A stretch of 42,401 nucleotides of DNA. Origin: an uncultured Pelagibacteraceae bacterium (lineage in GTDB: Bacteria > Pseudomonadota > Alphaproteobacteria > Pelagibacterales > AG-422-B15). The stretch spans positions 132,135 through 174,535 of the forward strand of contig CACDOH010000001.1 of NCBI GenBank assembly GCA_902554325.1, given 5' to 3'. Within the stretch, counting starts at the first letter, position 1. Every line of letters starts with the position of its first letter. The notes beneath the pieces are model-generated. The model searched no databases. It saw nothing but the letters and a program-made list of their open reading frames with translations, and was not told the DNA's origin. Positions 6,470-35,469 of the stretch are shown piece after piece. Made by a program: the position numbers and the translations under genes.

Positions 6470-6475
6470 TTATTT

Positions 6476-8547: not shown

Positions 8548-9694
8548 ATATTACTTTTTTGATACTTTTTATTATATACTCTAAATCTTTCTTTTTTAGA
8601 TCTGGATATATTGGTAAAGAGCATGTTTGATTATAATATGTTTCTGCATTTTGATAGTTTGCCTTATTAAATTTATATTTTTTTCTATAATAACTATGAT
8701 GATAAATAGGAACATAGTGAACTTGCAACTGAATTCCAAGATCAAACATTTTTTTAAAAAAAATTTCCTTTGTAATACTGATTTCACTAAATTTTATTTG
8801 AATTGGAAACAAGTGATAAGAGTGTCTAATCCCTCTTGATTCTTTGGGTAAAATAATTTCCTTAATATCAGCTAATGAATACCTATAAAATTTTGCTATC
8901 TTATTTCTTTTCATTATAAAGGAATTAAGTTTCCTTAATTGGCTGGAGCCTAAAGCACATTGAAAATCTGTTAATCTATAATTAAAACCTAATTGACTCA
9001 TGTCGTTAAGCCACATTTTATCTGATTTCAATTCTTTTCTGATTCCATGAGATTTTAGTAATCTCACTTTGTCATCAATAAGACTATTGTTTGTTATAAT
9101 TGCTCCACCTTCACCTGTAGTAATTGCTTTGACTGGGTGAAAAGACTGAGTAACTATGTCGGCATACTTTACTGCATAATATGGATCATTTAAATAATAT
9201 GAACCTAGTGCATGGCAGTTATCATTAATAAGTTTGAAATTATACTTATTAGCAAGCATTCTTAATGTTTTCCAATCGCATGGATGTCCTGCGTAGTCAA
9301 CGGCGATGACAGCCTTAATTTTTCTTTTGTTTAACTTATATTTTTTAATTTTATCTTCTAATTTTTCTGGATCTATACAATAAGTTTCTTTATTAATATC
9401 TACCAAGTCTGTTTTAGCTCCTGAGTACTCAATTGTATTAGCAGATGCTAAAAAAGTTATTGGGGAAGTAATTATTATATCATCTTTTTTCCAGCCAAGG
9501 GATTTACCTGACAAATGTAAAGCTGCTGTTCCACTTGAAACGACAGAACAATATTTTGCATTAAAGCTTTTTTTTAGATCGTTTTCAAACTTGCTAATTT
9601 GACTTCCTTGTGTGATGTAATCTTTCTTAAGTGATTTAGTGACAGCCTTAATGTCATCACTTCTTATTGTTTGTTTTCCATAGCTTATTTTCAT
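8534..9694 (-). CDS. pseC: UDP-4-keto-6-deoxy-AltNAc 4-aminotransferase
   Basis: PseC is the PLP-dependent second enzyme of pseudaminic acid synthesis, aminating C4 of the PseB product. The 386-residue sequence is a DegT/DnrJ/EryC1 aminotransferase: SSGTAALHLS near residue 53, the PLP-pyridine-contacting Asp in INDNCHALGS (Asp158), and the Schiff-base lysine in SFHPVKAITTGEGG (Lys189). The C-terminal HYVPIYHHSYY segment is also characteristic of PseC. It starts 8 bases after the pseB stop and overlaps pseF, which fits the canonical gene order. Confidence 0.93.
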   Translation of the reverse strand: MKISYGKQTIRSDDIKAVTKSLKKDYITQGSQISKFENDLKKSFNAKYCSVVSSGTAALHLSGKSLGWKKDDIIITSPITFLASANTIEYSGAKTDLVDINKETYCIDPEKLEDKIKKYKLNKRKIKAVIAVDYAGHPCDWKTLRMLANKYNFKLINDNCHALGSYYLNDPYYAVKYADIVTQSFHPVKAITTGEGGAIITNNSLIDDKVRLLKSHGIRKELKSDKMWLNDMSQLGFNYRLTDFQCALGSSQLRKLNSFIMKRNKIAKFYRYSLADIKEIILPKESRGIRHSYHLFPIQIKFSEISITKEIFFKKMFDLGIQLQVHYVPIYHHSYYRKKYKFNKANYQNAETYYNQTCSLPIYPDLKKKDLEYIIKSIKKVIYEKK

Positions 9695-9702: not shown

Positions 9703-10725
9703 TTAATGAATATTATTTCTTATGAGTTTTCTCAATTGTTCGACTGTGAGAAAATTAGTATTATTCTGACTTGAATAAGAAAATCCTTGCGGACACTTTT
9801 TTCCTCTTAAATTTTTATTTTTCTTAATTAGTTTAGTTTCTTTCCAAGTAAAAAACATGGAGTCAGGTTTAATTATATAAAATTTCTTAAATTCAAGAGT
9901 CTTATGAGAGTCATGGACAGAAATCATTTCCTCATGTATCTTTTCACCACTTCTTATACCCGTATAGTTGATTTTGCATTTAGGTGCCAATGCATTAGCC
10001 AAAGTTAAAATATTATATGAAGGAATCTTTGGGACAAATATTTCACCACCCTGCATTAATCTCAAACATTCGATAACAAAATTTACTCCTTCCATCAGAG
10101 TAATACTAAAACGTGTCATATTCTTATCAGTTATTGTGATAGTGCCAGAAGGAATTTGTTTTAATAAAACTGGGATTACTGATCCTCTGCTACCAAAGAC
10201 ATTTCCGTACCTAACAACTGATAATTTAGTTTTTGATTTACCTTTATAATTATTAGCTGAAATAAATAATTTATCAGAAGTAAGCTTGGTCGCTCCGTAA
10301 AGATTTGTAGGTGAAGATGCTTTATCTGTACTTAAAGCAATAACATTCCTGATGTTGTAGTGAAGAGCAGAGTCAATAATATTCTGAGCTCCTAAAATAT
10401 TAGTCTTTATCGTCTCAAACGGGTTGTATTCAGATGTTGGAACTTGTTTTAAAGCTGCAGCGTGAATTAAATAATCGACGTCATCATTCATTGCGAATAA
10501 AAGTCTCTCTTTATCCCTTATATCGCCAATAAAAAATCTTACAATCTTAGTATGGTTTTTTATTTTTTTTATAAAGCTCTCAGATAACATTTCGGATTGT
10601 TTTAATTCATCTCTGCTATATATTATTATTTTCTTTGGCCTATAGTTCTCCAAAACATTTCTTACAAATTCTTTGCCAAAGGAGCCTGTTCCCCCGGTAA
10701 TAAATATGGTTTTATTATTAAACAT
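9703..10725 (-). CDS. pseB: UDP-GlcNAc 4,6-dehydratase (5-inverting)
   Basis: PseB performs the committed step of pseudaminic acid synthesis, converting UDP-GlcNAc to the 4-keto-6-deoxy-L-arabino sugar with C5 inversion. The 340 residues form an extended SDR: GGTGSFGKEF NAD-binding motif at 11-20, HAAALKQVPTSEYNP, STDKASSPTNLYGATK containing Asp134-Lys135 and Tyr143-xxx-Lys147, VVRYGNVFGSRGSVIP, and a GGEIFVPKIPS segment. The AALKQVP and TDKA motifs separate it from ordinary epimerases. It is the first gene of the pseB-pseC-pseF set, 35 bases downstream of the Wzz-like gene on the same strand. Confidence 0.94.
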   Translation of the reverse strand: MFNNKTIFITGGTGSFGKEFVRNVLENYRPKKIIIYSRDELKQSEMLSESFIKKIKNHTKIVRFFIGDIRDKERLLFAMNDDVDYLIHAAALKQVPTSEYNPFETIKTNILGAQNIIDSALHYNIRNVIALSTDKASSPTNLYGATKLTSDKLFISANNYKGKSKTKLSVVRYGNVFGSRGSVIPVLLKQIPSGTITITDKNMTRFSITLMEGVNFVIECLRLMQGGEIFVPKIPSYNILTLANALAPKCKINYTGIRSGEKIHEEMISVHDSHKTLEFKKFYIIKPDSMFFTWKETKLIKKNKNLRGKKCPQGFSYSSQNNTNFLTVEQLRKLIRNNIH

Positions 10726-10760: not shown

Positions 10761-11717
10761 TTAGCTAGGATTTTCTTTGTACCTAAATTCGTAAGAAACT
10801 TTCAACGTCAGGATAAGCGAAATAACTACAATAGACAAAATAAAAGATAAGAAATAATAGTATCCTCTGCGAGAAGGTATATTATTTACAAGTATAGTGT
10901 AATCATAGATTTTATATTCTGAATTATTTGGCAAATCTTCAAGTCTTAAGAGTTCATTAACTTCTTCGGCAATAGCTTTAAAGTTTTGCATATTTTGAAG
11001 TCTTGTATTAATTCTTTCCTCAATATATCTAGCAAGCTCTGAAGCTTCGACTGTTAGATCAGTTGATATAGAAAAATCACTGTCTATTTCACTGAAAAAC
11101 CCTCCAGTTAAATTGCTAGCAGCTTCTATTTCCTCTTTATACATTGTCTTATAACTATCAGTCTCCATTAATCTTTTTCTAATTTCTACTCTTCTTTGAA
11201 GGCTTTCTGAATGAAGCTCTAAAGATTGTTTTACCATCTTCACAATATTCGCGTTAAATTCGTAATTAGCTTCATTAATTTTATCCAAATATTTTTGGTA
11301 AATAACATTAGCATTATCTTTAGAAGCATCAACGAAACTTATGTCATAGACTCCATTTTCCAATTCTTTTATTCCGTCACTTAAGTCAAAGTCTATAAAC
11401 TTTCTAAGATTATGTATGTATTGAATAAAGATTTCTGCTGAATCAAAGCTCCCATCAGGTTCATAGTTAGAAAAAAAAACATTTTGAACTAATCTAACGT
11501 GAAAAGCCTGCAATTCTCTTTTTAATAAAGAAAATTTGTTCATAGATTCATAATTTGCTGGATATATCTTAATTGTGACGTCATGGTCAGCAGTTTTTTT
11601 TGAATTACCATAGAAGTGCCCTATTGCCATAATAAAAATAAATACAATAAATAATATAAACTTTAATTTCCATGCACTTTCTAGTAAATCGAATATATCT
11701 ATTTGTTTTTCTTTCAT
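10761..11717 (-). CDS. Wzz-family chain-length determinant
   Basis: Polysaccharide co-polymerases of this family sit in the inner membrane and set the length of Wzy-made O-antigen or capsule chains. The 318-residue protein has the expected topology: a short cytoplasmic start with DIFDLLESAWKLK, a first membrane helix at about 18-36, a large periplasmic, largely helical middle, and a second helix at about 288-305 followed by a basic tail. There is no Walker-type kinase domain, so it is the Wzz type, not the Wzc type. Its presence says the island feeds a Wzy-dependent or similar polymer; no wzx or wzy is visible here. It lies 6 bases downstream of the epimerase gene. Confidence 0.8.
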   Translation of the reverse strand: MKEKQIDIFDLLESAWKLKFILFIVFIFIMAIGHFYGNSKKTADHDVTIKIYPANYESMNKFSLLKRELQAFHVRLVQNVFFSNYEPDGSFDSAEIFIQYIHNLRKFIDFDLSDGIKELENGVYDISFVDASKDNANVIYQKYLDKINEANYEFNANIVKMVKQSLELHSESLQRRVEIRKRLMETDSYKTMYKEEIEAASNLTGGFFSEIDSDFSISTDLTVEASELARYIEERINTRLQNMQNFKAIAEEVNELLRLEDLPNNSEYKIYDYTILVNNIPSRRGYYYFLSFILSIVVISLILTLKVSYEFRYKENPS

Positions 11718-13639: not shown

Positions 13640-14434
13640 TCATTTAATGTTACTGAATATATCTAACAACTTTCCGTGAATGTATTTGTTGGAAGCGATT
13701 ACTCCTTTTATAGAAGAAAATGGATTTCTTATCGATCCTTTAATTATATAATGTCTTCCACCTGAGTTTTTAATTAAATGTGCTCCAGCAAAGATATCCC
13801 ATAGCTTATCATCAGGATTTATATATGCATCAATTCTTCCAGACGCTACATACGCCATTTCTAAATTTGCTGACTCAAAAATTTTTATTCTTCTTGTAAT
13901 TGGTGGAGCAATTTTTTTTATAAGATTTTCAATTTTATTTCGATTTATTTTATTTGAAGATTGATTACAGTTAATAGAAATAACTGCATCCCCTAATTTT
14001 TTAACTTTTGAGGTATTTACCTTTTTACCATTCAGAGTTGTCCGTTTACCATCAGTAAAAAATAATTCAGATCTATTTACATCATATATACCAGCAGCAA
14101 TATCGTTATTTTTTTGCAAAATACTTACTGAATTTGCAAATATTGGTATTTGTCTTACTTGATTAGTTGTTCCACATATTGGATCAATAATCCATATATT
14201 ATATTCACTGTAATCTTTTTGTATTTCATTTATTTTTAAGCTTTCTTCACTGATGATTGTATCGTTTGGAAAGTATTCTTTAATAGACTTAAACAAGAAA
14301 TTATTTACTTTAATATCAAGTTCCGAAGTATACCCTTTGTTAGGTTTATAGCTCCTAAATTTATTTTGCTTATAGTTTATATTTTTCTCTATCAATAAAA
14401 GAAGTCTTTGTAAGAATAGTTTTCTTTTGTTCAT
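13640..14434 (-). CDS. Inositol monophosphatase-like protein with an altered metal site
   Basis: The 264-residue protein belongs to the IMPase/FBPase/CysQ superfamily of Mg2+-dependent sugar phosphatases. Visible metal-site elements are TSELD (Asp40), SEE (Glu63-Glu64), WIIDPICGTTN (residues 81-91) and the C-terminal DKLWDIFAGAHLI with Asp. The canonical motif is DPIDGTxN: Asp84 is present, but the second aspartate, a metal ligand in characterised members, is Cys87 here (codon at 14174-14176). Activity may be lost or changed. It lies 13 bases downstream of neuB on the same strand, where a phosphatase acting on a phosphorylated sugar acid would make sense. Confidence 0.85.
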   Translation of the reverse strand: MNKRKLFLQRLLLLIEKNINYKQNKFRSYKPNKGYTSELDIKVNNFLFKSIKEYFPNDTIISEESLKINEIQKDYSEYNIWIIDPICGTTNQVRQIPIFANSVSILQKNNDIAAGIYDVNRSELFFTDGKRTTLNGKKVNTSKVKKLGDAVISINCNQSSNKINRNKIENLIKKIAPPITRRIKIFESANLEMAYVASGRIDAYINPDDKLWDIFAGAHLIKNSGGRHYIIKGSIRNPFSSIKGVIASNKYIHGKLLDIFSNIK

Positions 14435-14447
14435 TTATTGTAATATG

Positions 14448-15518
14448 CTAAATGCAATCTGCTGTAAGAATTTGATCCTTTTTTATATTTTTTTTAGCCT
14501 TTTGTCCCACAATTGAAAAATAAAATTCCGGGTTTATACCATCTTGATTACTGGAAACAACAGTTCTAATCATTTTATCTAATATTTTTTCACCACCTTT
14601 AATATCGCACAAAGCAATAAATTTTTTTTGAAGTACATTCTTTAATGTTGTTTCTGATTCTTGAAGAATTTTAATTTTTGAACCCATGGCCTTTACAAGA
14701 TTATTTGACAGGTTGATCAATTTTTCAAAATCATCAAATTCTAAACTGGCTGATTGATCTGGACCGCTCATTTGCTTATTTAGAGTAACATGTTTTTCAA
14801 TTACATTAGCTCCTAAAGCTACTGACCCTAATGTGCCTTCGAAACCTATTCCATGTCCTGAAAATCCAACATCTTTATTAAACATCTCTTTCATAACATT
14901 TATAACATTTAAGTTTTTATCCTCCAAAGGACAGGGATAAGCGGATGTGCAATGAAGGAACATCATGGGACAATTCTTATTATCAAATATTCTATTAGTA
15001 ATATTCATTTGATCATAAGATGTCATACCAGTACTTATTAGTGTAGGAATATTCTTAGATGCTATATATTCTAAGAAATGATAATTAGTAGCATCAACAC
15101 TTGCAACTTTTATAACTGAAGCATTATTTTCGACTAAAAAATCAACTGACTTTTCTTCCCATGGACTTACAATAAATTCTAATTTCTTTTCCTTAGAATA
15201 TGTAATTAGTTCTTTGTATGTATCATCATTAAACTCAAGTCTTTTATCCGGGTATGTCCAAGTACCAAAGGCTTTGTTTTCAGTAGGAATATCATTTTCA
15301 TTTTTACTTAAGTATCCTGTCGGATCAACCAGTTTAGTATTAGGATCCACTAAATAATCTATATTCCTTTTTTGAAATTTTACTGCATCAGCACCTGCTT
15401 TAGCAGACAAATCAATCATTTTTTTTGCCAAATCAACTTGACCATTATGATTAATGCCTATTTCGGCAATAAAATAAGGGGATGCACCTTTTTTTAAATA
15501 TTTTTCCTTGAAACTCAT
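14448..15518 (-). CDS. neuB: NeuB-type N-acetylneuraminate/nonulosonate synthase with SAF domain
   Basis: The 356 residues form a full-length NeuB: FIAEIGINHNGQ near residue 17, AGADAVKFQKRN, a VSPWEEKSVDFL segment, IKVASVD, LISTGMTS, LHCTSAYPCP, GFSGHGIG, and ANVIEKHVTLNKQMSGPDQSAS, then a C-terminal SAF domain from about residue 295. NeuB condenses PEP with an acylamino sugar. Whether the acceptor is ManNAc, a di-N-acetyl-bacillosamine derivative or something longer cannot be read from sequence. It is divergent from the heptose-type operon across a 145-base gap, which suggests joint control. The phosphatase-like gene follows 13 bases on. Confidence 0.92.
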   Translation of the reverse strand: MSFKEKYLKKGASPYFIAEIGINHNGQVDLAKKMIDLSAKAGADAVKFQKRNIDYLVDPNTKLVDPTGYLSKNENDIPTENKAFGTWTYPDKRLEFNDDTYKELITYSKEKKLEFIVSPWEEKSVDFLVENNASVIKVASVDATNYHFLEYIASKNIPTLISTGMTSYDQMNITNRIFDNKNCPMMFLHCTSAYPCPLEDKNLNVINVMKEMFNKDVGFSGHGIGFEGTLGSVALGANVIEKHVTLNKQMSGPDQSASLEFDDFEKLINLSNNLVKAMGSKIKILQESETTLKNVLQKKFIALCDIKGGEKILDKMIRTVVSSNQDGINPEFYFSIVGQKAKKNIKKDQILTADCI

Positions 15519-15663
15519 TAAATATTAAAATTATTAATATTATATTAAAAAGATTAATTTATTATCTATTTGAATATTCATGTTAATATAATCACATAAA
15601 CCATTTTAATACATCAAGAAAATCATGAACTAATTTCAAATTTATCCGAAAGTTAGATTAACA
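15519..15663. promoter_or_regulatory. Divergent intergenic region between neuB and the heptose-type operon
   Basis: The 145-base AT-rich gap is the only place from which both the minus-strand neuB pair and the nine-gene plus-strand operon can start, so it should hold two back-to-back promoters. I see AT-rich blocks but no convincing -35/-10 pair or operator palindrome. The call rests on gene layout only. Confidence 0.4.
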
Positions 15664-16665
15664 ATGAAAAAAAGTAAAGATTTTTATCAATATGTTACTT
15701 CAAAAACTCCTTTTCGAATATCATTGGGTGGTGGAGGTACAGATTTACCAAACTACTCTAAAATTAGAGGAGGTGAACTTTTAACTGCAGCTATTAATCA
15801 ATATTGTACAGTATCATTATCCTCTCGTCCTTTAGACAATAATGTTCTTGTACAGACTACTAAAGTAGAATTTAGGAAATCAACTAAAGACATAAAACAT
15901 GAAATTATTAGAGAAACATTAAGATATTTTAAGTTAGATAATGCTCTTCAATTATCAACATTCACTTCAATTCCAACAAGGACTGGTTTGGGTTCGTCGA
16001 GTACACTTATTGTAGGATTAATTTGTGCAATAACAAAAATGAAAAATATTAAAATATCTAAAAGAGAGATTGCTAAGCTAGCTTATAAAATCGAGAGGAA
16101 AATCTTAAATTTGAAAGGAGGTATTCAAGATCAATATATTTCAGCTTTTGGAGGAATTCAAAAAATAAAGGTAAGTAAGACTGGTATAGTCAATTTAAAA
16201 ACAATAAACATAAGTCCGAAAGTACAAAAAATATTAAATAGTGGATTAGTAATGATTTATTCTGGAAAACAGAGAAATTCTTCAAGGATAATAAAATCAA
16301 TAAAGGATGATCAATCTAAAGTAATTGAAGTATTTGATGAAATAAAAGAGTTAGGAAAAAAATCGTATAACTATCTTATTAATGGAGATATTGAAATGAT
16401 TGGTAAAATAATGAATAAACATTGGGAACTTAAAAAAAAATTATCGTCTAACATGTCTTCCTTTGAGTTAGATAAGTCTTATAAAGAATTAAAAAAATAT
16501 GGCTCTCCTGGAGGTAAAATAGTAGGAGCAGGTGGCGGTGGTTTCTTCATGATGGCTGTTAATGAAAATAAAAAAAGATATTTAAAGAAGTTAAATGAAA
16601 ACGGTTATCGTATTTTGGATTGGAAGTTTGATTTTAATGGCACACATATTATTGATAAAGGTTAA
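15664..16665 (+). CDS. hddA: GHMP kinase, D-glycero-D-manno-heptose 7-phosphate kinase type
   Basis: HddA-type kinases phosphorylate C1 of heptose 7-phosphate to give the 1,7-bisphosphate on the way to GDP-heptose. The 333-residue protein shows the GHMP layout: TPFRISLGGGGTDLP at the N-terminus, the ATP loop RTGLGSSST at about 106-114, GGIQDQYISAFGG, and the C-terminal GSPGGKIVGAGGGGFFM. The FRISLGGGGTDLP start is typical of the HddA/fucokinase-like subgroup. It heads a plus-strand operon that also contains gmhA- and gmhB-like genes, which makes a heptose substrate likely. The next gene starts 3 bases after its stop. Confidence 0.87.
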   Translation: MKKSKDFYQYVTSKTPFRISLGGGGTDLPNYSKIRGGELLTAAINQYCTVSLSSRPLDNNVLVQTTKVEFRKSTKDIKHEIIRETLRYFKLDNALQLSTFTSIPTRTGLGSSSTLIVGLICAITKMKNIKISKREIAKLAYKIERKILNLKGGIQDQYISAFGGIQKIKVSKTGIVNLKTINISPKVQKILNSGLVMIYSGKQRNSSRIIKSIKDDQSKVIEVFDEIKELGKKSYNYLINGDIEMIGKIMNKHWELKKKLSSNMSSFELDKSYKELKKYGSPGGKIVGAGGGGFFMMAVNENKKRYLKKLNENGYRILDWKFDFNGTHIIDKG

Positions 16666-16668
16666 AAA

Positions 16669-17487
16669 ATGTTAAAGAAAAATGAAATAGGTATTGTACA
16701 AGGTAGACTATCAAAAAAAATAAGAAATCTTATTCAAGCATTTCCGAGAGATAATTGGGAAAAAGAATTCTTTGTTGCTGAAAGATTAGGCTTTGACGGT
16801 ATTGAGTTTATTTTCGATAACCTGAATAACCCAATATTGACAAAAAAAGGTAAGGAAAAAATCAGGAGTATTTTAAATATTTCTAAAACAAAAATATTTT
16901 CAGTTAATTGTGATTACTCTATGTTTAATCCTTTGTTTGGCAAAACTGTCGTTAAATCGACAGCCGTTATAAAGGAAGTTATAAATTCTTGTGCTGAATT
17001 AAATATACCTAAAGTAGGTTTATCTTTTGAAGATAATAGTTCTATATTAGATTTAAAAAGTTCAAGAGAAGCAATTCAAGCTCTTAGATCAATTACAAAT
17101 TATGCAAAAAGATTTGGAATAATGATAACTCTAGAAACATCACTAAGTGTAATAAATATAAAAAAATTAATAAATGAGGTTGGTAGTAAAAATTTAAAAA
17201 TTAATTTTGATACAGGAAATAGTTGTTCACTTGGGGAAGATACACCAAAAGCTATTTTAGAATTAAACAGCTTGATCTATAGTATACATGTTAAGGATAG
17301 AACAAAGCTCTTCGGAACAACGGTACCACTTGGAACTGGAGATGTAGATTTTAATTCGTGTTTTAGATCGTTAAAAGAAATAAATTTTGAAGGAGTAATT
17401 GTAATTCAAGGTGCGAGAGGAAAAAATGATATTGATACCGCAAAGAAATATCTTAAATTTGTTAAAAAGCTTTTGAAAGAAAATTAA
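16669..17487 (+). CDS. TIM-barrel sugar phosphate isomerase/epimerase (AP endonuclease 2 family)
   Basis: The 272 residues match the xylose-isomerase-like TIM-barrel superfamily: EIGIVQGRLSKKIR at the start, AERLGFDGIEFIFDN, ITLETSLSV near the middle, LKINFDTGNSCSLGED, and SLIYSIHVKDRT near residue 206. The acidic and histidine residues of these segments (Glu, Asp, His) are the usual divalent-metal ligands. Relatives act as sugar epimerases or isomerases. In this operon it could epimerise a heptose or keto-sugar intermediate; the substrate is unknown. It overlaps neither neighbour but sits 2-3 bases from both. Confidence 0.8.
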   Translation: MLKKNEIGIVQGRLSKKIRNLIQAFPRDNWEKEFFVAERLGFDGIEFIFDNLNNPILTKKGKEKIRSILNISKTKIFSVNCDYSMFNPLFGKTVVKSTAVIKEVINSCAELNIPKVGLSFEDNSSILDLKSSREAIQALRSITNYAKRFGIMITLETSLSVINIKKLINEVGSKNLKINFDTGNSCSLGEDTPKAILELNSLIYSIHVKDRTKLFGTTVPLGTGDVDFNSCFRSLKEINFEGVIVIQGARGKNDIDTAKKYLKFVKKLLKEN

Positions 17488-17489
17488 AA

Positions 17490-18215
17490 TTGAGTTCAAA
17501 ATCAAAACTTACAGGTAAACTCGCATTGGTAACAGGTGTTACTGGTGATATAGGATTAGCAATAACCGAAAGTCTATTAAATAATGGCGTTAAGGTATTA
17601 GGAATATCATTAAATAAAAAAAAACAAAATAATATTTTACGAAAATTTAAGAGATATAAAAATTCACTTTACATAATAAATTTTAACTTAGAAAAAATTG
17701 ATCAAATTGAAAAATTATGTATGAAAATAAAAAAAATACATGGAGTTCCAGATATTATTGTAAATAGCGCAGGAGAATTTCACTATAACAAGCTTGAAAG
17801 CAATTCTTTGATTAAAATAAAAAATAATTTTAATTTAAATGTTATTTCAGCAATACTAATATGTAAGTCATTTATAAAGGATATAAAAAAACGAAAGTGG
17901 GGAAGAATAATTAATATTTGCTCTTCGAGTGCATACAATGGAGGAGGGACATCTGGTCATTGTGTGTATAGTGCAACAAAGCATGCTTTGTTGGGGTTCT
18001 CACGAGCACTTGATGAGGAAGTTCGTACGTCAAATATAAGAGTTGGAACTATTTCCCCCGCAGGAGTAAAAGGAAATATGACAAAAAAAAGATACGATAT
18101 AAAACAATCATCGCTTATGGAGCCAAGTGAAGTTTCAGATGCAGTAAATTACTTAATAAACTCTGATGGCAATGGAATAATATATGAAATGCGTATCTGG
18201 AGAATGAAAAGATAA
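17490..18215 (+). CDS. Short-chain dehydrogenase/reductase (first of two)
   Basis: This 241-residue classical SDR has TGVTGDIG cofactor motif at 15-22, NSAG at 91-94 (NNAG in most members), Ser145 in ICSSSAYNG and the catalytic Tyr159-xxx-Lys163 (YSATK). It starts with TTG two bases after the previous stop; no ATG lies in frame nearby. The C-terminus (YEMRIWRMKR) departs from the usual VDGG ending. It probably oxidises or reduces one hydroxyl of the operon's sugar; a second SDR follows after 11 bases, so the two may do an oxidation and a reduction with the aminotransferase or epimerase between. Confidence 0.85.
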   Translation: MSSKSKLTGKLALVTGVTGDIGLAITESLLNNGVKVLGISLNKKKQNNILRKFKRYKNSLYIINFNLEKIDQIEKLCMKIKKIHGVPDIIVNSAGEFHYNKLESNSLIKIKNNFNLNVISAILICKSFIKDIKKRKWGRIINICSSSAYNGGGTSGHCVYSATKHALLGFSRALDEEVRTSNIRVGTISPAGVKGNMTKKRYDIKQSSLMEPSEVSDAVNYLINSDGNGIIYEMRIWRMKR

Positions 18216-18226
18216 AATATACAGCA

Positions 18227-19054
18227 ATGGTAAATAAAAATATTTTTAACCTTAAGGGAAAAAAAAGTCTTATTACCGGGGGTGGAGGTTTACTTGGACC
18301 AGAACACGCTATCGCTCTTGCCAATCAAGGCTCGGAGGTATTTTTAATAGATATAGATAAGCAAGGTCTGGATAAAGGATCTGAAAGAGTCAAAAAAGCA
18401 AATAAATCAGCTAAAGTTGAAACATTCCATATTGATCTGAAAGATGAGTCAGAGCTTAAAAGTCTAAAAAATTTTTTAATAAATAAAAATGTTCATATCG
18501 ATATCTTAGTTAATAATGCCGCCATAAACCCTAAAATGGATGCTTCTAATAATAGCTCTGGAAAGGTAGAAGACTACAAGTTAGACAATCTAAGAGAAGA
18601 AATTGAAGTAGGTTTAATTGGAACATTTTTGTGTTCAAAGATATTTGGCTCTGCAATGGCAAAGAAAAAATCTGGTGTAATAATAAATATTGCTTCAGAC
18701 TTAGCAATTCTTGCTCCAGATCAGAGAGTATATTCAAAAAATAATAATATTAATACTGTAAAGAATTTCAAACCTATAGGTTACCCTATGGTAAAGTCGG
18801 GCATGCTAGGCCTTAATAGATATTTAGCAACTTACTGGGCTCACAGAGGAATTAGGGTTAATTGTCTGGTACCTGGTTCTGTAAAAAACAAACAAACAAA
18901 AAAATTAATAAAAGAAATTGAAAGTAGAATTCCTTTATCTCGTTTGGCAAAAAAAGAAGATTATCACGGATCAATTGTTTTTTTAGCTTCAGATGCTAGC
19001 GCTTATATGACTGGACAGATATTAGTGGTAGACGGCGGAAGAAGCATTTGGTAA
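18227..19054 (+). CDS. Short-chain dehydrogenase/reductase (second of two)
   Basis: The 275-residue SDR carries TGGGGLLG at 17-24, NNAA at 96-99, Ser157 in INIASDLAIL and the catalytic Tyr186-xxx-Lys190 in IGYPMVKSGMLG, ending with the typical ASAYMTGQILVVDGG. An extra loop of about 15 residues (around 168-183, KNNNINTVKNF) before the active Tyr sets it apart from most SDRs and may shape the substrate pocket; similar loops occur in SDRs of polysaccharide clusters. The substrate is inferred to be a sugar or sugar phosphate of this operon. Its last 7 bases overlap a possible TTG start of the gmhA-like gene. Confidence 0.87.
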   Translation: MVNKNIFNLKGKKSLITGGGGLLGPEHAIALANQGSEVFLIDIDKQGLDKGSERVKKANKSAKVETFHIDLKDESELKSLKNFLINKNVHIDILVNNAAINPKMDASNNSSGKVEDYKLDNLREEIEVGLIGTFLCSKIFGSAMAKKKSGVIINIASDLAILAPDQRVYSKNNNINTVKNFKPIGYPMVKSGMLGLNRYLATYWAHRGIRVNCLVPGSVKNKQTKKLIKEIESRIPLSRLAKKEDYHGSIVFLASDASAYMTGQILVVDGGRSIW

Positions 19055-19062
19055 AAAATGTA

Positions 19063-19662
19063 ATGGATAAATCTAAAATAAGTTTTCCATCAAATTATTT
19101 TGCGGAAAGCTCAAATACTATTGCAACTCTTTCTAAACAAGAAGAAAAAATTAATAGAATTGTGAATGGTATTTTTGATACTTTGCAAAGTAATGGAAAA
19201 TTATTAATTGCTGGAAATGGAGGTTCTTGTGCTGATGCCGAACACTTTGCTGGAGAGCTAGTCTGCACTTATAAAAACCCAAAAAGATATGGTTTTCCAG
19301 CAGTTTCGCTGAGTAGTAACAGCGCATCATTAACTGCATGGGGGAATGATTTTGGTTTTGAAACTCATTTTGAACGTCAGGTAGAGTCTCTAGGACAGCA
19401 AAATGACGTGCTTTTTTTGATATCTACTGGTGGGGGGGACATAGAAAAAGGCTTGTCAGTAAATCTAATTAAAGCAGCCAATAAGGGTATAGAAAAAAAG
19501 TTAAAAATATTCTCTCTTATTGGGAAGTCAGGTGGAGAACTCGAAAAAATCTCAGATGAATACATAAAAGTAAAATCTAATGTTACATCCCATATTCAAG
19601 AAGCTCACATAGCTATAATACATTACATATGTGAGTCACTTGATAATCTTGGAAGTAATTAA
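19063..19662 (+). CDS. gmhA: Phosphoheptose isomerase (SIS domain)
   Basis: GmhA converts sedoheptulose 7-phosphate to D-glycero-D-manno-heptose 7-phosphate. The protein has LLIAGNGGSCADAEHFAGEL (active-site Glu), SLTAWGND, and the C-terminal IQEAHIAIIHYICE with the catalytic His. I take the ATG at 19063; an in-frame TTG at 19048, preceded by a purine-rich stretch and overlapping the upstream gene, is possible and would add 5 residues. The usual phosphate-binding STSGNS motif reads STGGGD here, encoded across a run of seven G (19432-19438). It fits between hddA and the gmhB-like gene in function. Confidence 0.88.
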   Translation: MDKSKISFPSNYFAESSNTIATLSKQEEKINRIVNGIFDTLQSNGKLLIAGNGGSCADAEHFAGELVCTYKNPKRYGFPAVSLSSNSASLTAWGNDFGFETHFERQVESLGQQNDVLFLISTGGGDIEKGLSVNLIKAANKGIEKKLKIFSLIGKSGGELEKISDEYIKVKSNVTSHIQEAHIAIIHYICESLDNLGSN

Positions 19663-19667
19663 CAAGG

Positions 19668-20381
19668 ATGATTATGAATAATAAAAACCATAAAATTGAA
19701 ATATATGCTGATGGTGCAACCACAGAAGAAATAAATAAACTGAAAATTTTATCTATTGATGGGTATACATTCAACCCTTCACTATTTAGAAAGAATAAAG
19801 CTGATGATTACATTGGGCATTCAAAAAAAATACTAGCATTAATACCCAATAAACCTGTTTCTCTTGAAGTTATCGCAGATACAAATGATGAAATGATAGA
19901 GCAAGCTTTAAAACTAAATAAATTAGCTTCAAATGTATTCGTTAAGGTTCCAATTACTAATACAAAAGGTATATCTACTCTTCCTGTACTTGATAGACTT
20001 TGTAAAGAAAATATTAAAATGAATATAACTGCTATATTTACAATTGATCAAGTTAGGGAAATTCTAGAAACAATAAAAGAGACAAATAGCATTATATCTG
20101 TTTTTTCGGGAAGATTGTTTGATATTGGCCTTGATGCAGTTAAGTTAACAAAAGAAATTTCTGAACTCACCCATGCCAATAGCAACTGTAAAGTACTCTG
20201 GGCAAGCACAAGAATGGTATATGACTATATTAATGCTCAAAATGCAGGTTGTGACATCATTACCATGAGCTATGAATTCATAACAAAAATGGATTTATTC
20301 AATAAATCCCCAGAGGAGTATTCATTACAAACTGTCCAAACATTTTACAAAGACGCTATTGATGCAAAATACAGTTTTTAA
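19668..20381 (+). CDS. Transaldolase-family protein (TalC/fructose-6-phosphate aldolase-like)
   Basis: The 237-residue single-barrel protein has the family's N-terminal EIYADGATTEEI with an acidic residue (Asp15), DGYTFNPSLF, the Schiff-base lysine in SNVFVKVPITN (Lys93), MNITAIFT, and SVFSGRLFDIGLD. Transaldolases move dihydroxyacetone units between sugars and can make sedoheptulose 7-phosphate, the substrate of the gmhA-like gene just upstream. This gives the operon its own supply of C7 sugar, or a dedicated aldol step in building a longer chain. It starts 6 bases after gmhA. Confidence 0.85.
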   Translation: MIMNNKNHKIEIYADGATTEEINKLKILSIDGYTFNPSLFRKNKADDYIGHSKKILALIPNKPVSLEVIADTNDEMIEQALKLNKLASNVFVKVPITNTKGISTLPVLDRLCKENIKMNITAIFTIDQVREILETIKETNSIISVFSGRLFDIGLDAVKLTKEISELTHANSNCKVLWASTRMVYDYINAQNAGCDIITMSYEFITKMDLFNKSPEEYSLQTVQTFYKDAIDAKYSF

Positions 20382-20943
20382 TTTGAACTTGTTACAATTT
20401 CACTTTATTCCAATTTTAAAAAAAAATAATTTATTTCTTGATCGAGATGGGATTATTAATAAAGCGATAATTAGAAATAAAGAAATATCATCGCCTAGAA
20501 GCTATGAAGAATTTATATTATATGAAGACCTTAAAATACTTAATGATAGCTTAATAGAAAACAATTTTAATAAAATAGTTATAAGCAATCAACCAGACAT
20601 AGAAAGAGGTACTATAGATTTAGAATTAATAAAAAAGATAAATCAATTAATTTATAAAGAAATCAATGTAAACTCTATTTATATATGTCCACATACGAAT
20701 GATAAAATGTGTAAATGCAGAAAACCAAATACTGGATTAATTGAAGAATATTTTAAGAAATATCAAAGATTAGGTAAAAATTTCTTTATAGGTGACACCA
20801 TAAAAGATCTTAAATGCTCAAAAACTCTTTCTATTCCTTTTATCTTAAGAAAAACTCAATATAACAAAAATTTAGTTAACTGTTCAGATTTTGCAATTGA
20901 TAGTTTAAACGATTTGAAAAATATTTTTTACAATAATCTCTAA
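20362..20943 (+). CDS. gmhB: HAD phosphatase, heptose 1,7-bisphosphate phosphatase type
   Basis: GmhB removes the C7 phosphate from heptose 1,7-bisphosphate. The HAD nucleophile motif is FLDRDG (Asp28 and Asp30 counting from a TTG one codon upstream), with SNQ at 76-78, the zinc site CPH (Cys110) and CKCRKP (Cys118, Cys120), and GDTIKD at 145-150; the CPH...CxCRKP zinc loop is diagnostic. The start overlaps the transaldolase gene by about 20 bases. About 20 residues precede the HAD domain, so a downstream TTG could also be the start. Together with hddA and gmhA it completes a heptose 1-phosphate pathway. Confidence 0.85.
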   Translation: MQNTVFNLNLLQFHFIPILKKNNLFLDRDGIINKAIIRNKEISSPRSYEEFILYEDLKILNDSLIENNFNKIVISNQPDIERGTIDLELIKKINQLIYKEINVNSIYICPHTNDKMCKCRKPNTGLIEEYFKKYQRLGKNFFIGDTIKDLKCSKTLSIPFILRKTQYNKNLVNCSDFAIDSLNDLKNIFYNNL

Positions 20944-21018
20944 AAAAAAGATTTAAGAATCATCTTCTGTCAGTTATGACTTGTTTCAACAATACAAATA
21001 ATGTAAATCAACTTTAAT

Positions 21019-21699
21019 ATGAATAAGCGTAATAATCACATTGCCTTCATACCAGCAAGAAAGGGGAGTAAGGGGTTTCCAGGAAAAAATAGTAAGCTAT
21101 TTGTTTTTACCGCAAATTTTATTAAAAAAAGTAAATTATTTGATAGAGTAATTGTATCAACAAATGATGAAGCAGTTAAAAGAAAAGCAACAATAAGTAA
21201 TTTTGAGATACATAATAGGAAAAATAAATATTCAACATCTACTTCATCTATAAAATCATCAATTCTTTCAGCTATTAATGAACTAAATATTAATGAGAAT
21301 GATATAATATGGTTATTTTATATACCCATAATCTATAAAGATTTAGTAGATTTTAAAAAAGCAAAAAAAATAATATCTAAAAAAAATGTAAATAGCTTAT
21401 TGAGTTTTGTGAAAGATAATATTCATCCCTATCATTTTTGGAAATTTGATCGAAATAAGAAAACAATTAAGCAATATTTTAAAAATAATATTTATAGAAG
21501 GCAAGATTTGCCTGCAGCATTTAGATATTATCATTATTTATGTTGCTTTAAGGTTAAAGAAGTTAAAAATCTAAATGAAGAATTGATAAATAATAAAACC
21601 TTCCCTTTAATATTAGATTTAAAGACTTCTGACAAACTGATTGAAGTGGATACGCACATAGATTATATTAAATGGAAAAAATTTTATGAAATTAAATAA
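21019..21699 (+). CDS. NeuA-like CMP-sugar cytidylyltransferase
   Basis: The 226-residue protein starts with the intact loop IAFIPARKGSKGFPGKN, then LFDRVIVSTNDEAV, and ends with LIEVDTHIDYIKWKK, matching NeuA-type enzymes that make CMP-activated acidic sugars. The middle deviates: the usual LQPTSPLR reads LFYIPIIYKDL, so the sugar-binding part has changed. It lies in the heptose-type operon 75 bases after gmhB (the largest gap in the run) and overlaps the aminotransferase gene by 14 bases. The operon's product is therefore probably CMP-linked, unlike GDP- or ADP-heptose made with HddC or HldE. Confidence 0.82.
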   Translation: MNKRNNHIAFIPARKGSKGFPGKNSKLFVFTANFIKKSKLFDRVIVSTNDEAVKRKATISNFEIHNRKNKYSTSTSSIKSSILSAINELNINENDIIWLFYIPIIYKDLVDFKKAKKIISKKNVNSLLSFVKDNIHPYHFWKFDRNKKTIKQYFKNNIYRRQDLPAAFRYYHYLCCFKVKEVKNLNEELINNKTFPLILDLKTSDKLIEVDTHIDYIKWKKFYEIK

Positions 21700-23071
21700 A
21701 CCAAAGATCAAGAATTCAAATAAGCTTTACAAAGAAGCAATAAAATACATCCCATCAGGTACTCAATCCTTTAGTAAAGGGGTTACGCAATTTGTAAATG
21801 GATTTGCTCCAAAATATCTAGATAAAGGCAAAGGAGCATATACATGGGATGTTGATAATAATAAATACTTAGATTATGTGATGGGCTGCCATCCACTTGT
21901 ACTTGGATATGCTGATAAAGATATAAATAGAGCAGTAAAAGATCAACTAGATAAAGGGTCAACATTTAGCTTGATGAATAAACTTGAATTAGATGTAACA
22001 AAAAAACTTATTGAAGTTGTACCGTCTGCTGAAATGGCAAGATTTGGTAAAAATGGCGCAGATGCAACAACCATTGGAGTGCGTGTTGCAAGAGCTGTTA
22101 CTAAAAGAGATCATATAGCCTACTGTGGTTATCATGGATGGCATGATTGGTATATTGCCAATACTGATTTAAATGATGGCATACCTAAATTTAATAACAA
22201 ATTAGCACATTCATTTAATTATAATGATTTGGACAGCCTTGAAAAAATTTTTAAGAGACTACCAAATAAAGTAGCAATAGTGATAATGGAACCTGTGGCT
22301 GTATCAGAACCAAAATGTTTCTCTAGTTCTATTTGCAAAAAAACATCCTGTAAGATAAAATGTCAAAACACTTTCTTACATGAAGTTCAAAAAATGGCAA
22401 AACATTATGGTGCATTGCTTATGTTTGATGAAATAATAAGTGGATTTAGATTTAGCCTCGGTGGAGCTCAAGAACTTTTTGGTGTTACACCAGATTTAAC
22501 TTCATTTGCAAAAGCTATTTCCAATGGTATTCCTTTATCAGCAATTGTAGGAAAAAAAGATTACATGAAAGTATTAGATAAAACCTTTTTTTCTTTTACT
22601 TACGGAGGAGATTGTCTAGGCCTAGCTGCAGCAGATGTATGTATTCCAAAAATAAAGAACAAAGATGTTCCTGGTCATTTAAATAAGGTAGGAAAAATTC
22701 TTAAAGATGGAATTAATAAATCTGCCTGTGATCATGGACTTACAGACTATTTTGAATGTATTGGATATCCTTGCAGAACTATCCTAGCAATCAAAGGTAA
22801 CAAAAAAAATAACGACCTTCATCTAAAATCATATATTCAGCAAGAGCTTTTTCGTAGGGGTATTTTGTGGACAGCATATCATGCAATTTCTTGGTCACAT
22901 AAAAGGAAAGATATAGAATATACCATCAAAGCATTTGATGAAGTATTTGAGAAAGCAAAAAAAATTATTAATAATAATAAGTCTGTAAAATACTTAATTG
23001 AAGGAGAATCAGTCAAACCTGTATTTAGAAAAGTTTCTGATTTTAACTCATATATTATCAAAAATAAATGA
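21686..23071 (+). CDS. Class III aminotransferase, glutamate-1-semialdehyde aminomutase-like
   Basis: The 461-residue PLP enzyme resembles HemL and related sugar aminotransferases: IPSGTQSFSKG, WDVDNNKYLDYVMG, FGKNGADATTIGVRVAR, CGYHGWHDWY, LLMFDEIISGFR (Asp248) and the Schiff-base lysine in FAKAISNGIP (Lys276). HemL of haem synthesis is an unlikely role here because of the operon. A four-cysteine insert (Cys211, 217, 222, 226) right before the PLP-Asp strand is unusual for the family and could bind metal. It probably aminates a keto or aldehyde group of the operon's sugar, and is its last gene. Confidence 0.85.
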   Translation: MKLNKPKIKNSNKLYKEAIKYIPSGTQSFSKGVTQFVNGFAPKYLDKGKGAYTWDVDNNKYLDYVMGCHPLVLGYADKDINRAVKDQLDKGSTFSLMNKLELDVTKKLIEVVPSAEMARFGKNGADATTIGVRVARAVTKRDHIAYCGYHGWHDWYIANTDLNDGIPKFNNKLAHSFNYNDLDSLEKIFKRLPNKVAIVIMEPVAVSEPKCFSSSICKKTSCKIKCQNTFLHEVQKMAKHYGALLMFDEIISGFRFSLGGAQELFGVTPDLTSFAKAISNGIPLSAIVGKKDYMKVLDKTFFSFTYGGDCLGLAAADVCIPKIKNKDVPGHLNKVGKILKDGINKSACDHGLTDYFECIGYPCRTILAIKGNKKNNDLHLKSYIQQELFRRGILWTAYHAISWSHKRKDIEYTIKAFDEVFEKAKKIINNNKSVKYLIEGESVKPVFRKVSDFNSYIIKNK

Positions 23072-23104: not shown

Positions 23105-24142
23105 TTATTTATATTTAAAAATATTTGTAATTTCTACTAACGATCTATTTAAATCTGATGAATAGTTAAAAAGTGTTTTTCCAATATATTTTTTTAGGAC
23201 AATATTTTTTTCTAATTTGATATCTTGTTTTTTTACAATTAAAATTCCATCTATTACAGAAATTTTAATTAAATCTTCATCTTCATAAAATATTTTTCCA
23301 ATAAACCACGGGTGCGTAAATTTTTTTATTTTTTTATAATATGAGTTAAACAAAGTTAATTTTAAATCTTTATATTTATATTTAATGAAACAAAATGCTC
23401 CAGGATATGGTTTAGAACATGCTTTTATGAATAAATCTATATCCTCCCCTTTCCAAGTCCAATTAATTACACCAGATATATCAGTATAAAACCTTGGAAG
23501 ATACCAACCTTTAGTTATATTTTGATTTATAGATTTAAAATCTTTACTTAGAACAATGTTATTTACGAAAATTTTAATTAAAGATTTATAAATTAAATTT
23601 GTATGTTTAAGATAATCTATAGGCAACATTTTTCCTTTAAGTTTCTCTTTTTTGCTTTGTATTAAAATTTGCCCAGTATCCACTCCCTCATCCAAAATAT
23701 GAATAGTAGCGGCACAAAATTTCTTTTTATTTAGAATTCTATAAGTAAAGGTACCTCCTCCTTTTTCTTCAGGCAATAAAGATGGGTGAAGATTAAAAAT
23801 TTTATTTCTAAATTTATCTATAATTTCTTTTTTAAAAATAAACCTTGAAGAGAGAGAAAAAATATAATCAATTTTATGTTTCCTTAAAATTGAATTTCCT
23901 ATTTTAGAATTTAAGTCATCAATATAATAAACATCTGTTTTTTTTTCTAATTCAAAAATATTTCTGTACAAATCTAAATCATTTTCAGAGTTTTTAATAT
24001 CCCTCAAATGAAATTTTTTTTTATGACTTATTATTATAGGTTTTGAAAGTTTATTTTTTATGAATTCGTCAAATAGACAATTCAAATGATACCCATGTCC
24101 AACTAAAGCAAATTTTGAGTTTTTGTTTATTTTAAATCTCAT
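23105..24142 (-). CDS. Sugar N-formyltransferase-like protein
   Basis: The 345-residue protein has a methionyl-tRNA-formyltransferase-like catalytic domain: the N-x-H pair in FNLHPSLLPEEKGGG (Asn117, His119) and Asp155 in ILDEGVDTGQIL, the complete Asn-His-Asp triad for transfer from N10-formyl-tetrahydrofolate. The N-terminus (FALVGHGYHLNCL) and a C-terminal extra domain differ from Fmt, as in sugar formyltransferases that act on nucleotide-linked amino sugars. It is convergent with the aminotransferase gene 33 bases away. It may formylate the amine that enzyme introduces; this link is inferred from position. Confidence 0.83.
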   Translation of the reverse strand: MRFKINKNSKFALVGHGYHLNCLFDEFIKNKLSKPIIISHKKKFHLRDIKNSENDLDLYRNIFELEKKTDVYYIDDLNSKIGNSILRKHKIDYIFSLSSRFIFKKEIIDKFRNKIFNLHPSLLPEEKGGGTFTYRILNKKKFCAATIHILDEGVDTGQILIQSKKEKLKGKMLPIDYLKHTNLIYKSLIKIFVNNIVLSKDFKSINQNITKGWYLPRFYTDISGVINWTWKGEDIDLFIKACSKPYPGAFCFIKYKYKDLKLTLFNSYYKKIKKFTHPWFIGKIFYEDEDLIKISVIDGILIVKKQDIKLEKNIVLKKYIGKTLFNYSSDLNRSLVEITNIFKYK

Positions 24143-24723: not shown

Positions 24724-25527
24724 GTGATAAGAAAAAAAGTAAAATTTCCAAAAAAGAAAACTCACAATGAAATGATTTCTTTTTTTAAAGATTTAAATCT
24801 TGAAAAGCAAATCAATAAGAATCACTCACTTGACATAAATTTATTAAGGAAATCATTACCTTATCCTCCAGATATGAGTGATTTATACAGAATTTATGAG
24901 TTCATTACTTTGAACAAAAGAACCACAATATTAGAGTTTGGGTCTGGCTGGTCAAGCTTAATAATGTCTTTAGCTTTAGGTGAAAATCTAAAAAAACATA
25001 AAAATGATATAAAAGATCTAAGAAGGAATAATCCTTTTGAATTATTTGTTGTCGATAATGAAAATAAATATTTGTCAGTTAGTAAAAAAAGAATTCAAGA
25101 TTATAAGAAAATTAATAAAAGTAAAATATTATCAAAAGTAAATTGGTTATTTTCTGAAGTAAGCATGACTTTGTTTGAAGGAAGATTTGCAACAGAATAT
25201 AAAACTCTGCCTCTATGTAATCCTGACTTTATTTATTTGGATGCTCCTGATCAATTTAATATCAAAGGAAAAATTAATGGTTTTAATATAGGTCATAATG
25301 ACTTAATGCCAATGTGCTGCGACATTCTCAAAATTGAACATTTCCTAGTTCCTGGAACTATTATATTAATTGATGGAAGGGGTGCAAATGCACAATTTTT
25401 AAAATATCACTTTAAGCGTAACTGGATTTTTATATATGAGAAAATTTTTGACCAGTATGTATTATATCTTGATGAAAAATCAATAGGACCTCTTAACGAC
25501 AGACAATTAAAATTCTATAAAAGCTAA
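24724..25527 (+). CDS. Rossmann-fold, methyltransferase-like protein
   Basis: The 267-residue protein has a SAM-methyltransferase-like core: TTILEFGSGWSSLIMSLAL (motif I), LFVVDNENKYLSVSKKRI, then NPDFIYLDAPDQFN and FLVPGTIILIDGRG. This order fits a class I methyltransferase or a non-catalytic relative found in glycan islands. It starts with GTG (24724); an in-frame ATG at 24772 is an alternative, since the first 16 residues are mostly lysine-rich. Its stop overlaps the stop of the converging gene by 4 bases. The substrate is unknown. Confidence 0.6.
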   Translation: MIRKKVKFPKKKTHNEMISFFKDLNLEKQINKNHSLDINLLRKSLPYPPDMSDLYRIYEFITLNKRTTILEFGSGWSSLIMSLALGENLKKHKNDIKDLRRNNPFELFVVDNENKYLSVSKKRIQDYKKINKSKILSKVNWLFSEVSMTLFEGRFATEYKTLPLCNPDFIYLDAPDQFNIKGKINGFNIGHNDLMPMCCDILKIEHFLVPGTIILIDGRGANAQFLKYHFKRNWIFIYEKIFDQYVLYLDEKSIGPLNDRQLKFYKS

Positions 25528-31453: not shown

Positions 31454-32017
31454 TTAATAAACATCCTCAAGTGTTATTTTTGAAGTTTTACATATCTCTC
31501 TGCTAAAATATTTTGGATTATAACAAGCTACAAGAATGGCATCTTGTTCTTCACCGTCTACAAGATAATGTCCTTTAAGAATAGCTTCAATTACCCAATT
31601 AGCTTTAAGATAAACTTTTACTGCTCCAATATTTGATTTGATTATTGGCCCGTGAACTTTTCTTATACCTAAATCATTAAAGGCTACTAAGTTTCCAAGC
31701 TTTATAGCTTCTGATCCCAGACCCTGCTTCAAATAGTTTTTGTCACCTATAAAAACAACCAGGTCTGACTTTTTATGAAGATAATCGATAGGACCAATTT
31801 TTATAACTCCTATATTTTTACGATCTTTTATATGATGCACTAAATACTGATAAAGGTTTTTATTTTTAATACCATTATTGTATTCATCTAATAGGTTTTC
31901 TTTTGTAAATGTTCTTTTTGAAGCTGAGTAATTTTTAGCATGTTCATTATTATGCCAGTCAATAAACTCACTATTAATATCCTTATGACTTAGCTCTCTT
32001 AATTCAACAGTGGACAT
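31454..32017 (-). CDS. pseH: GNAT acetyltransferase, PseH-like
   Basis: PseH acetylates the C4 amine of the PseC product. The 187-residue GNAT protein of the RimJ/RimL type has LRELSHKDINSEFIDWHNN at the start, the acetyl-CoA loop KQGLGSEAIKLGNLVAF (Q/RxxGxG/A motif), and IRKVHGPIIKSNIGAVKVYL followed by KANWVIEAILKGHYLVDG. The position directly upstream of pseI, with the pseB-C-F genes nearby, makes PseH the natural role, though the sequence alone does not separate it from other sugar acetyltransferases. It opens the run ending with the GT4 gene. Confidence 0.8.
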   Translation of the reverse strand: MSTVELRELSHKDINSEFIDWHNNEHAKNYSASKRTFTKENLLDEYNNGIKNKNLYQYLVHHIKDRKNIGVIKIGPIDYLHKKSDLVVFIGDKNYLKQGLGSEAIKLGNLVAFNDLGIRKVHGPIIKSNIGAVKVYLKANWVIEAILKGHYLVDGEEQDAILVACYNPKYFSREICKTSKITLEDVY

Positions 32018-35448: not shown

Positions 35449-35469
35449 TTTGTTTCTAGTACATAGAAA

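Follow-up and report, generated by a model that had tools for sequence, protein, structure and literature searches.

A candidate route from heptose phosphates to a CMP-activated ulosonic acid in a Pelagibacterales surface-sugar island

We examined a 42,401-nucleotide stretch of DNA, hereafter the window, from an uncultured Pelagibacteraceae bacterium (GCA_902554325.1, contig CACDOH010000001.1, positions 132,135 to 174,535 of the forward strand; G000:C1:132135-174535 in our numbering of genomes and contigs), and focused on eleven genes that bring heptose-phosphate enzymes together with a NeuB-type synthase that we call NeuB2. We propose that a core of these genes, consisting of a transaldolase, a GmhA-type isomerase, an HddA-like kinase, the short-chain dehydrogenase (SDR) SDR2, NeuB2, a phosphatase of the inositol-monophosphatase (IMPase) family and a CMP-ulosonate synthetase, probably leads to a cytidine monophosphate (CMP)-activated ulosonic acid derived from a heptose, as judged from sequence. 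In its most specific form, to which we give close to an even chance, the proposal is a dedicated bacterial route in which a GmhA-derived heptose and a NeuB-type synthase yield a ten-carbon (C10) 3-deoxy-dec-2-ulosonic acid, possibly aminated, that is activated by cytidine triphosphate (CTP).

The source genome (1.17 Mb, about 28% GC, 37 contigs) is 79% complete, and the setting of the locus is a surface-sugar island of the SAR11 type. A first-pass annotation had described nine packed plus-strand genes facing a NeuB gene and a phosphatase gene, and both the coordinates and the families were confirmed. The nine genes (15664-23071) are spaced by -23 to +75 bp, the two minus-strand genes occupy 13640-15518, and the divergent starts of NeuB2 and the kinase gene lie 145 bp apart. 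The eleven genes are as follows.

13640..14434, minus: IMPase-family sugar phosphatase (PF00459, Inositol_P, 127 bits)
14448..15518, minus: NeuB2, phosphoenolpyruvate (PEP)-condensing synthase (PF03102, 218 bits)
15664..16665, plus: GHMP sugar kinase, HddA/WcbL-like, of its own subfamily (best NCBIfam match NF049969, 169 bits)
16669..17487, plus: TIM-barrel sugar isomerase/epimerase (PF01261, AP_endonuc_2, 81 bits)
17490..18215, plus: SDR1, short-chain dehydrogenase (PF00106, 131 bits)
18227..19054, plus: SDR2, gluconate-5-dehydrogenase-like SDR (NF006070, 167 bits)
19048..19662, plus: GmhA-type sedoheptulose 7-phosphate isomerase with a SIS domain (TIGR00441, 154 bits; PDB 1tk9, E 2.7e-34)
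19668..20381, plus: transaldolase, TAL_FSA (PF00923, 130 bits; TIGR02134, 224 bits; aligned to 1vpx)
20359..20943, plus: HAD-IIIA phosphatase, GmhB-like (NF006506, 80 bits; PDB 4pnh, E 7e-10)
21019..21699, plus: CTP-transferase, NeuA/PseF-like, of the module-B type described below (PF02348, CTP_transf_3, 33 bits; CMP-NeuAc synthetases 6ifd and 1eyr)
21686..23071, plus: class III aminotransferase, dependent on pyridoxal phosphate (PF00202, 135 bits; NF004856, 387 bits)

The curated NCBIfam equivalog cut-offs were reached by none of the eleven genes (HddA 169 of 600 bits, gmhA 154 of 209, NeuB 283 of 400), and each is therefore treated as a remote member of its family. The CTP-transferase likewise scored far under the PseF cut-off. 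The real start of the HAD phosphatase probably lies inside the annotated reading frame, and among the loci with NeuB2 a GmhB-like HAD gene was present only in the window and in genome G035.

Whether NeuB co-occurs with the heptose genes had been put forward as a check on the first-pass annotation. We searched 397 Pelagibacterales genomes with a profile of four NeuB2 proteins (E<=1e-85) and found NeuB2 in exactly six, G000, G035, G092, G070, G351 and G359, which belong to three genera in two families; their copies are 46-66% identical to that of the window. The kinase subfamily was present in eight of the 397 genomes at E<=1e-70, with the next matches at 39% identity or less and E>=9e-64. For the transaldolase subfamily, the eight top-ranking genomes lay at E<=3e-62 (cut-off 1e-60), and a gap to 3e-55 came after them. 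These are the same eight genomes, namely the six with NeuB2 plus G107 and G248. In all six NeuB2 genomes, the transaldolase, GmhA-type isomerase and HddA-like kinase belong to the same subfamilies, and the hypergeometric probability that the six fall entirely within the eight is about 5e-12. With this result, we rejected the idea that NeuB2 is independent of the heptose genes. The linkage is also positional, in shuffled order: in four genomes, NeuB2 is the neighbour of the isomerase gene, the kinase gene or both, as isomerase-NeuB2-kinase (G092), isomerase-NeuB2 (G070), kinase-NeuB2-SDR2-transaldolase-isomerase (G351) and kinase-NeuB2-SDR2-TIM-isomerase-CTP-transferase (G359), and the G035 locus has the same divergent layout as the window. 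SDR2-like genes, 47-59% identical, occur in four other kinase/transaldolase loci, and two further NeuB2 loci have a TIM-barrel gene (24-31% identity). NeuB2 was also sought outside Pelagibacterales: at E<=1e-70 the window's own genome was the sole match in a class-level sample of 172 genomes. Among the matches listed in a GTDB scan, one close relative appeared, AG-404-A03 (50%), which is the G359 contig, and the others were at most 37% identical.

As controls, we collected 25 loci in the order that carry other HddA-like kinases, 33-39% identical to the kinase of the window. An HddC-like nucleotidyltransferase (NTase) was present in 21 of 25 control loci and in none of the six NeuB2 loci. Conversely, a CMP-transferase (PF02348) accompanied NeuB2 in 6/6 loci and the control kinases in 2/25, and an IMPase-family gene was found in 5/6 versus 0/25. 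The corresponding count for NeuB itself (6/6 versus 2/25) is circular, because the loci were picked by NeuB2; the other three counts are not. The earlier remark that HddC is missing and a CMP-type enzyme is present is thus borne out at the other NeuB2 loci as well. The claim that HddC and HldE are missing is valid for the window and, as judged from the PF00483 and PF01467 matches, for the 79%-complete genome. From their size and context, we read the three PF00483 proteins as GlmU-like (451 aa), GalU/RfbA-like (289 aa) and AmgK-MurU-like (231 aa, beside a sugar-kinase-like gene), and neither of the two PF01467 proteins has the length of HldE.

NeuB2 has kept all of the catalytic and metal-binding residues compared (E25, Q55, K129, Y186, S213, H215, E234 and D247), and differs from other NeuB proteins elsewhere in the active site. 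Position 314 is Ser or Tyr in all six NeuB2 proteins (Ser in the window), whereas Arg or Lys occupies it in 69 of the 73 other NeuBs compared. In addition, Phe112 (NmNeuB numbering) is replaced by Trp. In sialic acid synthase, Arg314 is reported to be the only residue from the antifreeze domain in the active site, where it positions the N-acetyl group and the aldehyde of N-acetylmannosamine (ManNAc), and the R314A variant is reported to be inactive (PMC6795526). The residues of NeuB2 would therefore fit an acceptor that lacks an acetamido group. In a quick IQ-TREE phylogeny, the NeuB2 proteins formed a single clade with a Shimodaira-Hasegawa-like approximate likelihood ratio test (SH-aLRT) support of 100, which grouped (98) with the NeuBs of module B (see below) and four GTDB NeuBs that likewise lack Arg or Lys at position 314.

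The heptose enzymes of the locus also retain their active sites. All eight isomerases of the module (8/8) retain D61 and the zinc ligands H64, E68, Q175 and H183, and these four ligands are described as completely conserved in GmhA (PMC5705639). In contrast, this set is incomplete in 5/5 isomerases from SAR11 clusters that combine a transaldolase, a kinase and an NTase. We had considered annotating the isomerase identically to those of SAR11's other heptose-type clusters, and rejected this since the latter lack the GmhA zinc site. The complete zinc site favors sedoheptulose 7-phosphate as substrate, and hence a C7 sugar; the module isomerase fits a true sedoheptulose 7-phosphate isomerase, as far as its residues can indicate. 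In our alignment, the transaldolase has Glu and Phe at the positions that we take to tell transaldolase from fructose-6-phosphate aldolase. The closest PDB structures of the kinase are 3k85 and 4usk, and its invariant residues R18, D27, Q155 and D156 are equivalent to R13, D22, Q162 and D163 of WcbL, the catalytic residues mutated in a previous study (PMC4691232). A Lys precedes the catalytic Gln-Asp pair in all control kinases and is replaced by Trp, Ile, Ser or Val in the module kinases, so the sugar on which the kinase acts may differ.

From these observations we suggest the following order of events. The transaldolase would supply sedoheptulose 7-phosphate, which the GmhA-type isomerase would convert to an aldoheptose 7-phosphate. 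The kinase, the HAD and IMPase phosphatases and the SDR and TIM-barrel enzymes could then phosphorylate, trim and adjust the heptose. An anomeric phosphate perhaps keeps the ring closed, as a nucleotide does in the pseudaminic and legionaminic acid routes; with a kinase, no NTase and one or two phosphatases, we speculate that this phosphate is a temporary lock during oxidation or amination. NeuB2 would join the free aldehyde sugar and PEP to give the C10 3-deoxy-dec-2-ulosonic acid, and the NeuA/PseF-like enzyme would turn this into a CMP sugar destined for a surface polysaccharide. The class III aminotransferase of this genome probably introduces an amino group as well. All substrates, the order of the steps, the product and its carbon number (C10, or C11 with an octose acceptor) are what we infer, whereas the gene content, the phylogenetic and positional linkage, the conserved active sites and the absence of HddC are observed.

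The first-pass annotation had treated the nine plus-strand genes as a single unit. The association of the heptose genes with NeuB stood, and the unity of the nine did not: orthologues of the aminotransferase (55-56%) and of the CTP-transferase (43-45%) occur in G064, G274 and G171 (L067-L069) with a different NeuB, of 276 aa and without an SAF domain, and on this ground we discarded the idea of one nine-gene pathway. These three loci also contain an SDR2-like SDR, a TylF-type methyltransferase and a GNAT protein, and the TIM barrel was found in two of the three. A contig from Magnetococcales (L133) has a similar arrangement. We conclude that the TIM-barrel gene, SDR1, the CTP-transferase and the class III aminotransferase are a separable second module, which we call module B. 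G064 also has a GmhA-type isomerase that is 56% identical to that of the window. Because module B occurs elsewhere with other SAF-less NeuBs, amination, which had been presented as a step of the pathway, is not established for the core and lies outside it. Other class III aminotransferases are found near the CMP-transferases of G035 and G070, however, and amination may therefore be common. We also asked whether the CTP-transferase could be a decayed gene, given a seven-residue deletion in which the GKPLI stretch is missing, and rejected this since the gap is common to all four module-B orthologues.

Many marine viral contigs from IMG/VR (L197-L276) carry a NeuB of 270-290 aa (e.g., L199:8007-16800 and L218:7998-13600). 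All 75 viral NeuBs that we aligned lack the SAF domain, and 74 of the 75 have Trp112. Several viral cassettes have the order NeuB-CMP-transferase-aminotransferase-TIM-SDR2 or NeuB-SDR1-TIM-SDR2, and only three phage records in an annotated phage collection matched at E<=1e-20. Since the module-B orthologues and the viral cassettes recur elsewhere, we conclude that the window merges the heptose module with a cassette of the module-B/viral type. No HddA-like kinase of the viral contigs belongs to the subfamily of the heptose module, and of 73 such viral kinases not one lies within 8 kb of a NeuB.

Several observations weigh against the proposed pathway. The CMP-transferases near NeuB2 are non-orthologous between loci, at 20-54% identity, and the G070 locus yielded no IMPase gene. 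In G248, where the kinase, transaldolase and isomerase genes are located at contig ends, NeuB2 was not detected and a partial NTase adjoins the kinase; in G107, the isomerase is followed by a run of N in which NeuB2 could lie. The Trp112 NeuBs of marine viruses and module-B loci have no transaldolase or kinase, and because such NeuBs occur without heptose genes nearby, Trp112 alone is no marker of a heptose acceptor. An HddA-type C1 kinase would be needless if NeuB2 uses heptose 7-phosphate, and the role that we assign to the kinase is a guess. Lastly, the genome-wide negatives rest on a genome that is 79% complete.

We weighed four other explanations. In lincomycin biosynthesis, LmbR (transaldolase), LmbN (isomerase), LmbP (kinase), LmbK (phosphatase) and LmbO (guanylyltransferase) make an octose with the same kinds of enzyme, acting in the same order as proposed here (PMC4351081, PMC5854111). 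If the transaldolase, like LmbR, used ribose 5-phosphate as the acceptor of the C3 unit, NeuB2 would receive an octose and form a C11 acid, which would also give the transaldolase a purpose, as it is otherwise unneeded for sedoheptulose 7-phosphate if transketolase supplies the latter. The first-pass annotation had omitted this parallel, and because of it a C8 acceptor, and hence a C11 product, keeps some probability. We nevertheless consider an octose unlikely, given the full GmhA zinc site of the module isomerase; the SAR11 clusters with a full set of transaldolase, isomerase, kinase and NTase use a divergent isomerase without it. Just as unlikely, if not slightly more so, is an ordinary nonulosonic acid, in which NeuB2 would use a hexosamine (ManNAc or a legionaminic or pseudaminic acid precursor) or mannose, the last giving 2-keto-3-deoxynononic acid (Kdn), and the heptose genes would serve another residue. 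NeuB2 is after all a full-length NeuB, pseudaminic acid genes occur in the same window, and SAR11 surface islands are mosaic. Yet NeuB2 was never found without heptose genes in the 397 genomes, lacks Arg314 and forms a separate clade; neither NeuC nor LegB/PseB nor a PseG-type gene is part of the conserved module; and the pseudaminic acid genes of the window have their own PseI and PseF.

We think it improbable that the locus encodes a nucleotide-heptose pathway, in which the CTP-transferase, or an HddC that escaped detection, would activate the heptose 1-phosphate made by the kinase, with NeuB2 carried along as a passenger. Retention of the kinase at every NeuB2 locus would be explained in this way, as would the partial NTase that stands next to a kinase of this subfamily in G248. 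However, free ulosonic acids, and not sugar 1-phosphates, are what PF02348 enzymes of this kind activate, an HddC-like gene was absent from all NeuB2 loci as compared with most controls and was not identified genome-wide, and the linkage of NeuB2 would be left unexplained. The possibility that unrelated sugar genes came together by chance in a hypervariable island is very remote for the locus as a whole: the SAR11 hypervariable region HVR2 is a rapidly rearranging region of surface genes (PMC2217521) and the nine-gene run does combine two modules, but the same subfamilies recur jointly in 6-8 genomes from two families in differing gene orders. A chance mosaic is thus largely refuted for the core and possible for the aminotransferase, CTP-transferase, TIM-barrel and SDR1 genes.

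The proposed heptose-to-ulosonic acid route can be set beside known systems. It resembles the opening half of the GDP-heptose or the lincomycin octose pathway, coupled to the closing half of a nonulosonic acid pathway. With the GDP-D-glycero-alpha-D-manno-heptose pathway (GmhA-HddA-GmhB-HddC) the locus shares a GmhA-type isomerase, an HddA-like kinase and a GmhB-like HAD phosphatase, but it lacks HddC and adds NeuB2, the IMPase-family phosphatase, a CMP-transferase and a dedicated transaldolase. It did not match the HldE/HldD type of the ADP-heptose pathway, and there is no PF01467 protein of HldE size in the 79%-complete genome. Like the lincosamide octose pathway, the locus links a transaldolase, an SIS isomerase, a GHMP kinase and a HAD phosphatase, a likeness drawn by family and not from Lmb sequences; unlike that pathway, it has no LmbO-like guanylyltransferase and has PEP condensation, CMP activation and a true GmhA zinc site. 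The N-acetylneuraminic (Neu5Ac), legionaminic and pseudaminic acid pathways share with it a NeuB-type PEP condensation followed by CMP activation, but here the acceptor would come from the heptose set and not from a UDP- or GDP-hexosamine route with a hydrolysing enzyme, and NeuB2 lacks Arg314. Hexosamine precursor genes (NeuC, LegB/C/G and PseB/C/G) are not conserved across the six NeuB2 loci, and the PseB and PseC of the window go with their own PseI. Because HddC and LmbO are absent, Arg314 is absent and the hexosamine precursor genes are unlinked, we conclude that by the features tested the locus belongs to none of the GDP-heptose, lincosamide octose and nonulosonic acid systems. The locus shares with the module-B and viral cassettes the genes for the aminotransferase, CTP-transferase, TIM barrel and SDRs, and its NeuB, also with Trp112, falls into one broader clade with theirs, whereas the NeuBs of those cassettes have no SAF domain and no kinase or transaldolase alongside.

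Eight SAR11 clusters (L192-L196, L352, L353 and L365) resemble the lincomycin set, with a transaldolase, a divergent SIS isomerase, an HddA-like kinase, an HddC-like NTase and often a GmhB-like HAD phosphatase; the lack of the GmhA zinc site was checked in L192-L196. These clusters may make a nucleoside diphosphate (NDP)-octose or an unusual NDP-heptose.

If the proposed route is correct, CMP-activated ulosonic acids would extend from eight carbons (3-deoxy-D-manno-oct-2-ulosonic acid, Kdo) and nine (sialic acids) to ten, heptose metabolism and sialic-acid-type metabolism would be joined directly, and a new size class would be present in a bacterial order that ranks among the most abundant in the ocean. 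The results also link SAR11 surface islands to the SAF-less NeuB genes of marine viral contigs, a large group that has been little described. A full-text literature search, with most subscription journals outside its coverage, found no paper on decaulosonic or dec-2-ulosonic acid, and for nonulosonic acids together with SAR11 it found only a review of algal viruses.

Altogether the window contains three NeuB genes and three cytidylyltransferase domains. The first-pass annotation had left out the two further NeuB genes and a pseudaminic acid set, which is split around the eleven-gene locus and which separately explains the PseI/PseF pair. The genes of this set, within which no PseG was identified, and two genes downstream of the aminotransferase are as follows.

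7858-8547: PseF (263 bits versus a cut-off of 206)
8534-9694: PseC
9703-10725: PseB
23105..24142, minus: possible sugar N-formyltransferase (PF00551, 49.5 bits)
24724..25527, plus: probable S-adenosylmethionine (SAM) methyltransferase, likely accessory (no Pfam match; ILEFGSGWSS motif as the sole basis)
30211-31248: PseI, a NeuB gene (425 bits versus a cut-off of 340)
31454-32017: weak PseH-like GNAT (47 bits versus a cut-off of 93)

The N-formyltransferase-like gene is not conserved in other NeuB2 loci and its membership in the pathway is uncertain. Homologues of the methyltransferase-like gene, 51-54% identical, lie within the NeuB2 loci of G092 and G070.

The third NeuB is short (1633-2331, 232 aa), has no SAF domain and sits on a very long branch; the adjacent gene (123-1493) encodes a fusion of a glycosyltransferase-2 with a degenerate cytidylyltransferase-like domain. 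Within the same island, the three proteins encoded at 5321-7834 and 10761-11717 (318-452 aa) have no Pfam match and are probably unrecognised sugar-transfer or surface proteins. The rRNA operon (35259-40100; 16S-Ile-Ala-23S-5S) is contiguous, with the surface island beyond the 5S gene. In strain HTCC1062, HVR2 is a 48-kb region of surface genes flanked by the 5S and 23S genes (PMC2217521); it thus separates 23S from 5S, whereas in the window 16S, 23S and 5S are unbroken.

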